Source of the DNA: an uncultured Paracoccaceae bacterium
GTDB lineage: Bacteria > Pseudomonadota > Alphaproteobacteria > Rhodobacterales > Rhodobacteraceae
Reading direction: 5' to 3'
Assembly: GCA_913060475.1 (NCBI GenBank)
Contig: CAJXSD010000001.1
Coordinates: forward strand, 1-64,000
DNA: 64,000 nucleotides
The stretch's first letter is position 1, and each line of letters starts with the position of its first letter. The notes below the pieces were generated by a model that worked only from the letters and a program-made list of their open reading frames with translations, ran no database searches and was not told where the DNA came from. Of the stretch, positions 27,039-31,757 are shown piece after piece. The position numbers were made by a program, and so were the translations under genes.

Positions 27039-27107
27039 TGCGGTACTTGCCCCCTTGGATGTAATCGCGCATAACATGTTGGAACCAAAATGCAAAAGGA
27101 AATGCCA

Positions 27108-27284
27108 ATGTCAATGCAAGCTCCTGAAACCCGTGTCGTGGAAACCTATCGCGTTGCCTGTGACGGCGGCGAAGGTGCCTTGGGACATCCCCGCGTTTGG
27201 TTGCAGATCCCCACGGATAAGGGCTGGGTCGAATGCCCCTATTGCGATGCGAAATTGGTGCATCGTGATCATCATCAAGAGTGA
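27108..27284 (+). CDS. CHCC-type zinc-finger domain protein (NDUFS6-like)
   Basis: A 58-residue protein with the zinc pattern Cys (VACDGG), His ([10 protein letters not shown]), and CPYC near the end. It matches the bacterial zinc-finger proteins related to the NDUFS6 accessory subunit of respiratory complex I, found across alphaproteobacteria. The ATG at 27108 is preferred because AAAAGGA lies 7 bases before it; two earlier in-frame ATGs are too close to that site or lack one. It is divergent from the ABC ATPase. Confidence 0.85.
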
Positions 27285-27320
27285 TCAAAAAAATCTTCAC
27301 ATCCTTTTACCATGGACACG

Positions 27321-27342
27321 TCACATTTTAGCCCAAATGTGA
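27321..27342. promoter_or_regulatory. Perfect inverted repeat upstream of the pilin-like array
   Basis: TCACATTT (27321-27328), spacer TAGCCC, AAATGTGA (27335-27342). No T tract follows, so a plain terminator for the zinc-finger gene is unlikely, though a hairpin could form. The half-sites are those of a CRP/FNR site but in inside-out order. The 209-base gap 27285-27492 otherwise holds a 12-bp palindrome CAGCCATGGCTG at 27461-27472 and no gene. Confidence 0.4.
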
Positions 27343-27492
27343 ATCAATAGTCATTCGCGTAATTAGGGGCGGTGGCGCGATGTTATGGCTTGCGTTTTCC
27401 ACCTTGTCTGTGGCGCAGGGCCGTTTGGTTCCGTGGCACACTTTGTGTAGGGGACATAAACAGCCATGGCTGTCGGTGTTGAAAGAGGAATG

Positions 27493-27771
27493 ATGTTTAA
27501 ACGCTTTATCGCCGATGAAATCGGCGCAGTAACGATTGATTGGGTCATTCTGACCGCCGGCATCGTCGTAATGGCCATTGCGGCAATATCAGTATTTAAG
27601 GTTGACGAGCAATCTGTTGCAACCTTGGTGGTGTGTAACAGTACAGGCGAGACAAAAACCGTGATGCCGTTGACGGGCAACCCAATATCAAAGTTAATTG
27701 TCGGCACGCGTACCCGAATATCATCGTTCGGCAGCTATATTGCCACTGGGAATGGATGTGCTGAGCCATAG
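27493..27771 (+). CDS. Class IVb-pilin-like small protein, array member 1
   Basis: A 92-residue protein: short basic N-terminus, then G11 followed by AVTIDWVILTAGIVVMAIAAI, a hydrophobic helix, and a 60-residue polar tail with two Cys. The layout G-x4-(D/E)-W before a hydrophobic helix matches Flp/TadE-type prepilins, where the peptidase cuts after the Gly and an acidic residue sits at +5; here it is D16. AAAGAGGA precedes two adjacent ATGs; 27493 has better spacing. Paralogue of the next two genes over residues 1-32 only. No pilus assembly gene is nearby. Confidence 0.75.
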   Translation: MFKRFIADEIGAVTIDWVILTAGIVVMAIAAISVFKVDEQSVATLVVCNSTGETKTVMPLTGNPISKLIVGTRTRISSFGSYIATGNGCAEP

Positions 27772-27783
27772 TATTGGTGCTGT

Positions 27784-27819
27784 GATAGCGCAGTCAAATT
27801 TGTGAAATGTGTCTAAGAG
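27784..27819 (+). repeat. Leader repeat copy 1 (between array members 1 and 2)
   Basis: Similar in sequence to 28213-28247: both read GATAG, then CAGTC, TTTGTG(A/C)AAT, TGT and AAGAG in the same order with 1-2 base gaps. It lies 63 bases before the start of array member 2. The shared leader supports origin by tandem duplication of a leader-plus-gene unit. Confidence 0.6.
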
Positions 27820-27881
27820 TAGTTTGGGTAATTAAAAGGATTTGAATATCGACCAGTCGATTTGGCTTAACGAGGAATAAC

Positions 27882-28187
27882 ATGACAAAAACCAACCTGT
27901 TTCCAGAAACGGACGCGAAACACCATCTGAACCAAGCATGCGGTGTGTTCAAACGGTTCGTTCGCAATGAACGCGGTGCGGTCACGATTGATTGGGTCAT
28001 CCTGACTGCAGGTATCGTGGTTATGACGGTCGGGGCTATGGCGGTATTTCGCATTGATACAGATGGGATTACTTTGGTCGGCCGTCCCGACGCAGACGGA
28101 AACATGAATTTCGAGGTGACGGGCGGCAACTGGTACGGCCGGTTGGTCAAGGCAATTGAATTTAAGGTTGCGTTTTGGCAGCCATAA
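27882..28187 (+). CDS. Class IVb-pilin-like small protein, array member 2
   Basis: A 101-residue protein with a 32-residue leader containing FKRFVRNERG, a putative cleavage site after G32, D37 at +5, and the helix AVTIDWVILTAGIVVMTVGA. The helix start is identical to member 1 at AVTIDWVILTAGIVVM. The tail (about 55-101) has no resemblance to the other members: a TDGITLVGRPDADG turn, then NWYGRLVKAIEFKV. Ribosome site GAGGAATAAC before the ATG. Probably membrane-anchored or a pilus/pseudopilus subunit if processed; no function is known. Confidence 0.8.
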   Translation: MTKTNLFPETDAKHHLNQACGVFKRFVRNERGAVTIDWVILTAGIVVMTVGAMAVFRIDTDGITLVGRPDADGNMNFEVTGGNWYGRLVKAIEFKVAFWQP

Positions 28188-28212
28188 ATTCGCACAGGGT
28201 GCCATTGGGGAT

Positions 28213-28247
28213 GATAGTGTCAGTCGTTTGTGCAATTTGTAGAAGAG
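28213..28247 (+). repeat. Leader repeat copy 2 (between array members 2 and 3)
   Basis: Second copy of the 36-base leader described at 27784-27819, ending 10 bases before the start of array member 3; its AGAAGAGAGA end may supply the ribosome site. Confidence 0.6.
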
Positions 28248-28257
28248 AGACAAGTAA

Positions 28258-28530
28258 ATGAAAGTTTTGAGTGAAAAGTTCGGGGCCGCAGCCCGCCAGT
28301 TTATCTGCGATGAAGATGGAGCAATCACGCTGGATTGGGTGATACTAACCGCGGGTATCGTTGTAATGGTGATCGTTGTGATAATATTGTTCGATGTAAA
28401 AACGCCAGAGGAACTGCATGCGAGTACGCCCAACGGTGTAGACCCTAGGGACGGTGCCAGTTTCTTGTCCGTACTCATGTTGGATACACACGACGCGGTT
28501 TATAAATTCAGAAATACAATAATGCCCTAA
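28258..28530 (+). CDS. Class IVb-pilin-like small protein, array member 3
   Basis: A 90-residue protein. Leader of 21 residues ending FICDEDG, putative cut after G21, D26 at +5, then AITLDWVILTAGIVVMVIVVIILF. The 45-residue polar tail is unrelated to those of members 1, 2 and 4. Codon choices in the conserved segment differ from members 1 and 2 at synonymous sites, so the protein sequence, not recent DNA conversion, has been kept. Member 4 starts 41 bases downstream. Confidence 0.78.
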   Translation: MKVLSEKFGAAARQFICDEDGAITLDWVILTAGIVVMVIVVIILFDVKTPEELHASTPNGVDPRDGASFLSVLMLDTHDAVYKFRNTIMP

Positions 28531-28571
28531 TTTTATAATACGCCGTATATAGCTATTGTGCTGATCTAGGG

Positions 28572-28868
28572 ATGAGGATCACGTGGTTGACTAGTATTCG
28601 AAGACTGATGTGCAGTTTTCTAGTGGATTGCAGGGGATCAATTAGTATCGAATGGGTGTTGCTGATTGCGACCCTGGTCGGCTTGGCTATGTTCGTGTTT
28701 CCAGTGTTCCAGGCCGATTTGGACAAGGTCGATATCGCCACCAGCGGTGATACCTTGGCCGAAACGCTGCAAAGTAGCCAGTTCGCAGGGCGCGGCGAAA
28801 TTTCAAATATACTGGAAAGTGTGCAGGAAACGGTCAATGGGTTGGCCAAAAAACTGCTGGGCCGCTAG
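28572..28868 (+). CDS. Class IVb-pilin-like small protein, array member 4 (divergent)
   Basis: A 98-residue protein: basic leader with VDCRG, putative cut after G22, E27 at the +5 position (the canonical residue), helix SISIEWVLLIATLVGLAMFVFPVF, then an amphipathic tail ending in a basic KKLLGR. It is closer to a classical Flp/TadE prepilin start than members 1-3 and lacks the TAGIVVM signature. Weak ribosome site. Last gene of the array; polA follows after 90 bases. Confidence 0.72.
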   Translation: MRITWLTSIRRLMCSFLVDCRGSISIEWVLLIATLVGLAMFVFPVFQADLDKVDIATSGDTLAETLQSSQFAGRGEISNILESVQETVNGLAKKLLGR

Positions 28869-28958
28869 GCTGATTTATCCTGGTGTATCGCGCAATTGCC
28901 GCTGGTCAAATTTTTCCCGATTGTGTACACCTGATCCCGACGAAAAGCGGGGTATATT

Positions 28959-31757
28959 ATGTCATTTGGTTCAGGACATCATCTGCATTTAATTGATGGA
29001 TCGGCGTTTATTTTTCGCGCCTTTCATGCATTGCCCCCTTTGACGCGGAAATCCGATGGGTTGCCCGTGGGCGCGGTCAGCGGGTTTTGTAACATGCTGC
29101 TGCGGTACATTGAGGGCAACACAGGCCCCGATGCGGCCACCCATTTGGCTGTCATTTTTGACAAGGGCAGTCACACATTTCGCAATGACATGTATGATCA
29201 GTACAAAGCAAACCGCGATGCCATGCCCGAGGATTTGCGCCCCCAAATCCCCCTGACCCGTGACGCAACCCGCGCCTTTAATATCGCTTGCGAAGAAATC
29301 CAAGGATATGAGGCTGACGATATTATCGCCACCTTGGCCCATCAGGCCCGCGACGCTGGCGGGCGTGTGACAATTGTCAGTTCTGACAAGGATCTGATGC
29401 AGCTGGTCGGCGGCGGTGTCGAAATGTATGATGCCATGAAAAACCGCCGGATTGATCGTGATGGTGTGTTTGAAAAATTCGGCGTCTTTCCCGAACGCGT
29501 GGTTGATGTTCAGGCCTTGGCCGGTGACAGCGTCGATAACGTGCCCGGTGCGCCTGGAATTGGTGTGAAAACCGCGGCATTGTTGATCAACGAATACGGT
29601 GATTTGGAAACGCTGCTGGAACGGGCGGGCGAAATCAAACAGAACAAGCGCCGCGAAACATTGATAAATCATGCGGATCAAATCCGTCTTAGTAAACGTT
29701 TGGTCGAATTGGATGCCAACACACCGCTGGAATTCACGCTGGATGATTTGGTTTTGCGCGACCCGGACCCTGAGGTTTTATTGGATTTTCTGGCGCAAAT
29801 GGAATTTCGCACCATCACGAAAAAGGTCGCTGAAAAATTCAACCGTGCTGCGCCTGAAATCAATGATACCCCGCAGCAAATGGCCGCTGAACCGATTGCG
29901 GCAACGACGGTGGGGTTTGATGCGGATCAATATGTCTGCATCCGCGATGTGGAAACACTGGACGCATGGTGCGCACAGATTTCGGAACTGGGCTATGTTG
30001 CCGTCGATACGGAAACCACATCCTTGGATGAAATGCGGGCTGAATTGGTGGGCATTTCACTGGCCACCGCGCCGGGCGTTGCGGCCTATATCCCTATCGC
30101 GCACAAAGACGGCGCAGCGGATGATTTGTTCGCCACTGAAACCTTGGTGGAACAGCAGCTAAGTCTGGATCAGGTGTTTGATCGTTTGGGCCCGATCCTG
30201 ACCGACCCTGCCATTTTGAAAATCGGTCAAAACATCAAATACGATGCCAAGATTTTTGCGAATCTGGGTCAGGATATTGCGCCGTTTGATGATACGATGT
30301 TGTTGTCTTATGCTTTGCATGGCGGGTTACATGGGCATGGCATGGATACGCTCAGCGATCGGTATCTAAACCACACCCCCATCCCGATCAAGGATCTGTT
30401 GGGCTCGGGGAAATCGGCCATCACCTTTGACCGTGTGCCGATCGATCAGGCCACGCGATACGCCGCCGAAGATGCGGACATCACCCTACGCCTGTGGCAA
30501 TTGTTCAAACCCCAATTGCATCAGGCCCGCGTGACCACCGTGTATGAAACCATGGAGCGCAGTCTGGTACCGGTTTTGGCCAATATGGAACGCGCAGGCG
30601 TTTTGGTTGATCGCGATACACTTAGCCGTATGTCCAACGCATTTGCGCAAAAAATGGCCGCGCTTGAGGCGGAAATTCACGAATTGGCAGGGCAGTCGTT
30701 CAACGTCGGATCCCCCAAACAGCTGGGTGAAATCATGTTCGACAAATTGGGATATGAGGGCGGCAAGAAAGGTAAAACAGGCGCCTATGCCACCGGTGCC
30801 GATATCCTTGAGGATTTGGCGACCCAACATGTTTTGCCCGCGCGCGTGCTGGATTGGCGTCAGCTGTCTAAGCTGAAATCCACCTATACGGACGCGTTGC
30901 AAGATCACATCAATCCGACCACGGGCCGGGTGCACACATCCTATTCCATTGCGGGGGCTAATACGGGCCGATTGGCATCGACCGATCCAAACCTGCAAAA
31001 TATCCCCGTCCGATCAGAGGACGGTCGCCGCATCCGCGAGGCCTTTATCGCGCCCGCGGGCAAAGTTTTGGTCAGTCTGGATTACAGTCAAATCGAACTG
31101 CGCATTTTGGCCCATGTGGCGGGGATCGACAGTTTGAAACAGGCCTTTCGGGATGGGCATGACATCCACGCCATGACCGCATCGGAAATGTTCGATGTGC
31201 CCCTAGATCAGATGACATCCGATATTCGGCGTCAGGCCAAGGCGATTAACTTTGGCGTGATATACGGCATTTCTGGGTTCGGGTTGGCCCGCAACCTGCG
31301 TATTCCACGGGCCGAGGCGCAGGCCTTTATCGATCGATATTTCGAACGTTTCCCGGGGATCAAGGATTATATGGACGCCACCGTCGCCTATGCCAAGGAC
31401 CATCTTTGCGTAAAAACCCTGTTTGGCCGCACCATCCATACCCCCGAAATTAATGCCAAGGGGCCAACCGCAGGTTTTGCCAAACGTGCGGCAATTAACG
31501 CCCCGATACAAGGGACCGCCGCAGACATCATTCGCCGTGCCATGGTGCGCATGCCCGCCGCCATCGCGGATTTACCCGCAACGATGTTGTTGCAGGTCCA
31601 CGATGAATTACTGTTTGAGGTCGATGCAGATGCGGTCGATACGCTGATCACACGGGCCAAAGATGTGATGGAAAACGCGGCCGACCCTGTGGTGCATTTG
31701 GATGTCCCCCTGATCGTTGAGGCGGGGCAGGGCGACAACTGGGCCGTCGCGCATTAG
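28959..31757 (+). CDS. polA: DNA polymerase I
   Basis: A 932-residue polymerase for gap filling and Okazaki-fragment maturation. Residues 5-290 are the 5' nuclease (LIDGSAFIFRAFHAL, YEADDIIATLA, GDSVDNVPGAPGIG). Residues about 330-510 are a 3'-5' exonuclease with intact VAVDTETTSLDEM and YAAEDADITLRL. The polymerase domain has DYSQIELRILAHVAG (motif A), RRQAKAINFGVIYGIS (motif B) and QVHDELLFEV (motif C). All three activities appear intact. Length is normal. Confidence 0.97.
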   Translation: MSFGSGHHLHLIDGSAFIFRAFHALPPLTRKSDGLPVGAVSGFCNMLLRYIEGNTGPDAATHLAVIFDKGSHTFRNDMYDQYKANRDAMPEDLRPQIPLTRDATRAFNIACEEIQGYEADDIIATLAHQARDAGGRVTIVSSDKDLMQLVGGGVEMYDAMKNRRIDRDGVFEKFGVFPERVVDVQALAGDSVDNVPGAPGIGVKTAALLINEYGDLETLLERAGEIKQNKRRETLINHADQIRLSKRLVELDANTPLEFTLDDLVLRDPDPEVLLDFLAQMEFRTITKKVAEKFNRAAPEINDTPQQMAAEPIAATTVGFDADQYVCIRDVETLDAWCAQISELGYVAVDTETTSLDEMRAELVGISLATAPGVAAYIPIAHKDGAADDLFATETLVEQQLSLDQVFDRLGPILTDPAILKIGQNIKYDAKIFANLGQDIAPFDDTMLLSYALHGGLHGHGMDTLSDRYLNHTPIPIKDLLGSGKSAITFDRVPIDQATRYAAEDADITLRLWQLFKPQLHQARVTTVYETMERSLVPVLANMERAGVLVDRDTLSRMSNAFAQKMAALEAEIHELAGQSFNVGSPKQLGEIMFDKLGYEGGKKGKTGAYATGADILEDLATQHVLPARVLDWRQLSKLKSTYTDALQDHINPTTGRVHTSYSIAGANTGRLASTDPNLQNIPVRSEDGRRIREAFIAPAGKVLVSLDYSQIELRILAHVAGIDSLKQAFRDGHDIHAMTASEMFDVPLDQMTSDIRRQAKAINFGVIYGISGFGLARNLRIPRAEAQAFIDRYFERFPGIKDYMDATVAYAKDHLCVKTLFGRTIHTPEINAKGPTAGFAKRAAINAPIQGTAADIIRRAMVRMPAAIADLPATMLLQVHDELLFEVDADAVDTLITRAKDVMENAADPVVHLDVPLIVEAGQGDNWAVAH

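Follow-up and report, generated by a model that had tools for sequence, protein, structure and literature searches.

Candidate accessory Tad prepilins with a constant helix and variable tails in a tandem gene array beside polA of an uncultured Paracoccaceae bacterium

In the 64,000-nucleotide stretch of DNA that was analysed (the window), four consecutive small genes on the forward strand (27466-28868), flanked by a zf-CHCC gene and polA, encode proteins that begin with a nearly constant hydrophobic helix and end in variable tails. The question raised by this locus was what such proteins are, and whether they belong to a pilus. The tandem array of four genes claimed by an earlier note on this DNA was borne out by the open reading frames, and the features of the locus were the following:

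27090..27284, + strand, zf-CHCC protein (Pfam), conserved polA neighbour and left boundary
27321..27342, no strand assigned, perfect 8-bp inverted repeat TCACATTT-6-AAATGTGA, 5′ of member 1
27466..27771, + strand, member 1, DWV-type pilin-like protein, 101 aa, G = residue 20, D at +5
27793..27804, + strand, 12-mer GTCAAATTTGTG, found twice in 113.6 kb of the genome (suggestive only)
27882..28187, + strand, member 2, DWV-type pilin-like protein, 101 aa, G = residue 32
28258..28530, + strand, member 3, DWV-type pilin-like protein, 90 aa, G = residue 21
28572..28868, + strand, member 4, divergent member with GSISIEWV, 98 aa, G = residue 22, genus profile E=1.7e-7
28959..31757, + strand, polA (DNA polymerase I), right boundary

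A constant helix and variable tails

To begin with, the common anchor that had been proposed for members 1-3 was recovered by alignment as GA(V/I)T(I/L)DWVILTAGIVVM, while member 4 carried GSISIEWVLL. The motif at the helix start was therefore GXXXXDW in members 1-3 and GXXXXEW in member 4, and the name DWV is used here for the pilin-like family with the pattern G-x4-D-W-V. When member 2 was searched against the whole genome, it retrieved member 1 (E=8.8e-14), member 3 (E=2.9e-8) and member 4 (E=0.003), so the likeness within the array goes beyond chance. A DWV profile of the sampled Rhodobacteraceae-like family included members 1-3 in its alignment and matched member 4 significantly (E=1.7e-7). 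Furthermore, all four proteins showed the general pattern of type IV prepilins (G/A/S, four uncharged residues and D/E, at most 35 residues from the start, then 14 uncharged residues; PMC3244431), with the G at residues 20, 32, 21 and 22 and uncharged stretches after +5. The net charge of the leaders was low (0, +3, −1 and +3 for members 1-4, respectively), and the AlphaFold model of member 2 placed a helix from residue 33 onwards, with a mean pLDDT of 60 that was too weak for a fold search.

The codon differences in the helix of members 1-3 were mainly synonymous (32 codons pooled, pS 0.67 and pN 0.23); therefore, the constancy of the helix acts at the protein level, and this segment is under purifying selection. 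The substitution rates of the tails, a check proposed in the earlier note, gave a saturated pN of ~0.6-0.7 for the aligned tails compared with 0.23 for the helix. The complete divergence described there was nearly borne out: a weak C-terminal motif common to other copies of the genus persists in the tails of members 1 and 2 and is absent from those of members 3 and 4. Its score was reached by 2/500 and 0/500 shuffles for members 1 and 2, and by 44/500 and 57/500 for members 3 and 4, respectively.

Regarding the non-coding DNA, a promoter and terminator scan gave no more sites than shuffled sequences, and no CtrA-type TTAA-N7-TTAA box was found upstream of the pilin genes of the genus. A second inverted repeat (TCACAGA-6-TCTGTGA) was observed in L056, ~50 bases 5′ of a pilin start at 2454 (−), and the presence of such repeats 5′ of off-locus pilin genes in two species is possibly due to chance. 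The two copies of the 12-mer (27793-27804 in the window and L032:9298-9309) each lay 5′ of a DWV pilin gene, that of L032 preceding the Tad-operon pilin; the core of this 12-mer was not enriched 5′ of pilin genes across the family.

The Tad operon and the DWV family

The absence of peptidase, ATPase and secretin genes near the array, as stated in the earlier note, was correct for the window; however, the genome does encode the three, in a single Tad operon on a different contig (C4). This operon was complete (rcpC, rcpA, tadZ, tadA, tadB, tadC and tadV), and Pfam models recognized RcpC, the secretin, the T2SSE ATPase, two T2SSF proteins, AAA_31 at the tadZ position and the leader peptidase; no second PF01478 peptidase was found in the genome. 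Directly 5′ of rcpC, at the flp position, a DWV protein of 66 aa was encoded (KDESGAVTIDWVILTAGVVVL), whose helix (GAVTIDWVILTAGVVVL) is nearly that of the array. The array proteins are kin to this Tad-operon pilin, although they are longer (90-101 aa) and their genes adjoin polA, outside the tad locus. In addition, TadE/F-like and TadG-like genes, judged by eye, were located on C4 at ~94-96 kb (L087:1-1640), ~20 kb from the main Tad operon.

No array member matched any Pfam or NCBIfam model above its curated cut-off, including the Flp, TadE and TadF profiles against which a search had been suggested, and PF04964 (Flp_Fap) had no match anywhere in this genome. The class IVb (Flp-type) prepilin assignment of the earlier note was upheld in one respect, since the same helix stands at the flp position of the genome's own Tad operon and before rcpC in most family genomes, and qualified in another, given the lack of profile membership and the motif GXXXXDW instead of GXXXXEY. 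The missing similarity to prepilin profiles, which might speak against a pilin, is true of the curated models and is outweighed by the Tad-locus paralog. Member 4 likewise did not qualify as TadE/TadF: it scored 13.4 bits against the TadF cut-off of 27.3 bits and has EW rather than GXXXXEF. As for DUF4244 (PF14029), its likeness was limited to two Tad-locus DWV pilins, which matched weakly at 17.3 and 15.3 bits, below the 27-bit cut-off. A PDB sequence search with the genus profile and a plasmid DNA search with the array returned no match, and the plasmid DWV copies with a listed annotation were all labelled "hypothetical protein".

Across 219 family genomes, the DWV profile matched 189 and the own-type Tad secretin was found in 192, while canonical Flp_Fap exceeded its cut-off in only 13. 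DWV was present in 183 of the 184 genomes with a strong own-type secretin (E below 1e-80) versus 6 of the 35 others, several of these six being weak (Fisher 4e−29, with relatedness ignored and co-occurrence tabulated by hand). Among the 80 best DWV loci of named relatives (Rhodobacteraceae and Rhodobacterales), Tad genes were present at 60, the median distance to rcpC being 188 bp, and a DWV-type gene preceded rcpC in most of the family genomes inspected. D was found at +5 in 257 of 258 family members selected by the pattern. Because DWV tracks the own-type secretin so closely and Flp_Fap is so scarce, DWV is most likely the usual Flp pilin of this type of Tad system, with D-W replacing E-Y at +5/+6. 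Several genomes with canonical Flp_Fap (G019, G080, G092, G147 and G203) had a more distant type of Tad secretin, which suggests two Tad lineages within the family. Moreover, the Tad-locus pilin genes of two genera (L048:8379-9989 and L044:9604-10734) appeared as several identical copies spaced by exactly 468 bp, with one divergent copy adjoining rcpC.

The kind of protein is already known. The likeness is to the Flp/PilA major pilins of Tad (type IVc) pili (PF04964), which are small prepilins with G at −1, an acidic +5 residue and a hydrophobic helix, and one member of the present family occupies the flp position before rcpC. Flp pilins carry the motif GXXXXEY (PMC10934763), whereas the array has GXXXXDW, proteins of 90-101 instead of ~60 aa and a position outside the tad locus. 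Among the orphan Flp genes located away from tad loci is smc02446 of Sinorhizobium meliloti, which encodes a single pilin of 57 aa bearing the characteristic Flp motif, and Agrobacterium has the interchangeable pilins ctpA/pilA (PMC10934763). As in these cases, the array consists of extra pilin paralogs besides the main pilin gene but, unlike the single smc02446, it is a tandem set in which the helix stays constant and the tails are longer and variable. In Gram-positive bacteria, Flp-like pilins encoded in tad loci have E/D at +5 without Tyr at +6 (PMC3244431), and thus depart from the motif at the same position as the array, although they belong to another phylum and lie inside tad loci. Tad loci of Rhodobacterales have been linked to phytoplankton association (PMC8383342); these concern the same pilus system in the order of the named relatives, and the parts of that source considered here do not describe pilin sequences or off-locus copies. 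No description of the present genes turned up in the open-access literature searched, although one may exist elsewhere. Within this known kind, the present genes form a variant by virtue of their DW motif, their arrays with a constant helix and their long tails.

Copies away from the Tad genes

In this genome, two further DWV copies were found between a glycosyltransferase gene and leuS. This site held one copy in the sister genome G001 and two in G002, while the polA site held two copies in G002 and one decayed copy in G001, in which D+5 had changed to G and the frame had shifted in the tail. Hence, both sites carry DWV genes in the three genomes of the genus, and the possibility raised earlier that the array might lack conservation in relatives was answered by the occupied polA site in all three. 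Where the polA region was read in further genomes of the family, no pilin matching the pattern was found beside polA. The open copies of the genus comprised the four of the window and eight others. The helix pS was also far above pN among the G002 copies, and the leuS-site tails of G001 and G002 could still be aligned (41% identity, pS 0.85, pN 0.41). The short-helix tree gave little resolution, and the genus copies did not form one clade. The helices of the polA-site and leuS-site (L031:2202-3144) copies of this genome grouped together rather than with the same site in the sister species (support 73-75), which may reflect gene conversion.

The Tad site of G002 was empty, with both flanks (a lytTG fragment and the Lhr helicase) on one contig. 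The order there was topA, CoA-transferase genes, a truncated lytic transglycosylase, a 1.3-kb AT-rich stretch (GC 0.34) and the helicase gene that follows tadV in the genome of the window. An ORF of 389 aa in AT-rich DNA at this empty site (L228:2177-3346) had only the pilus N-domain (PF13629), without the secretin channel. TadA was not found in G001 or G002, nor RcpA in G001, these being fragmented and incomplete MAGs, and 60 further G002 contigs, a part of that genome, contained no tad genes or peptidase. Nevertheless, four open off-locus genes of G002 retain the helix and D+5, which weakens a purely Tad-dependent role without excluding it.

Long tails were seen solely in copies that had no adjacent Tad genes. 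Of the 258 distinct members selected by the pattern, tails of at least 100 aa occurred in none of the 184 copies at loci with Tad genes (median length 64 aa) versus 23 of the 74 others, a group that comprises both true off-locus copies and loci truncated by a contig end or by the length of sequence fetched. The genus copies differed from most Tad-locus pilins in tail length and in their two-cysteine tails. Off-locus DWV pilins of 225-251 aa with large C-terminal domains were observed at L064:7609-10803, L035:8049-9571 and L205:949-1626. One of these, from another genus (L064:9196-9951), was modelled as a beta-sandwich. Carbohydrate-binding modules were among its best structural matches, although the TM-scores were low, and no Pfam model matched that part.

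Accessory prepilins and competing readings

On balance, the products of the four genes are probably Flp-type (class IVb/IVc) prepilins that serve the single Tad pilus machine as accessory subunits and expose variable tails. GA(V/I)T(I/L)DWVILTAGIVVM would be the leader-peptidase site plus the assembly helix; TadV of contig C4, as the one peptidase, would cleave the array prepilins, and the helix would pack against the resident major pilin, so that the subunits join the Tad pilus and display their tails at its surface. According to this proposal, the constant segment would be invariant because it is read by one peptidase and packed against the resident pilin, and the tails would vary because they are exposed. 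The modelled beta-sandwich copy outside the genus may lend modest support. On the other hand, the low leader charge, the lack of a curated model match and the sister genomes in which no TadA was found count against it. Between diversified surface subunits and anchored effectors, the two options of the earlier note, the former seem the more likely, although the off-locus genes kept by G002 may have Tad-independent roles.

It is rather unlikely that these are Tad-independent, single-pass small membrane proteins that keep the helix as an anchor and expose their tails without any pilus assembly. The four ORFs with D+5 and helix in G002, the intact leuS copy of G001, where TadA and RcpA were undetectable, and the long or two-cysteine tails agree with such proteins, but DWV follows the Tad secretin almost 1:1 across the family, a mere anchor would not need the retained leader-peptidase site, and the polA copy of G001 has decayed, as would follow if its usefulness depended on the Tad machine. 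That decay, the copy number varying between sister species and the saturated tails could instead indicate relics, that is, near-neutral flp duplicates that drift and whose helix is recognizable as the slowest part. This is quite unlikely, as the helix pS far exceeds pN in members 1-3 and in the G002 copies, all twelve open copies have kept their frames, and the leuS-site tails still align between species. Minor pseudopilins of the TadE/TadF kind are disfavoured and very improbable: member 4 has E at +5 and a faint TadF match (E=0.075), but this lies far under the cut-off, members 1-3 carry the helix of the Tad-operon pilin, and the TadE/F-like and TadG-like candidates are encoded elsewhere, on C4. 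A more speculative and rather unlikely reading is a modular display repertoire. One constant pilin helix would serve across the genome, combined with interchangeable C-terminal domains unrelated to one another (short tails in this array, CBM-like beta-sandwiches in another genus); the repertoire would function with Tad pili or without them and would persist after the Tad operon is lost.

DWV, then, is a probable Tad pilin family found throughout these bacteria and missed by Pfam and NCBIfam, a gap that one profile would repair. Moreover, the existence of long-tailed copies apart from Tad genes suggests that the exposed parts of Tad pili can differ, and a sister species without Tad at the usual site makes the dependence on Tad testable.
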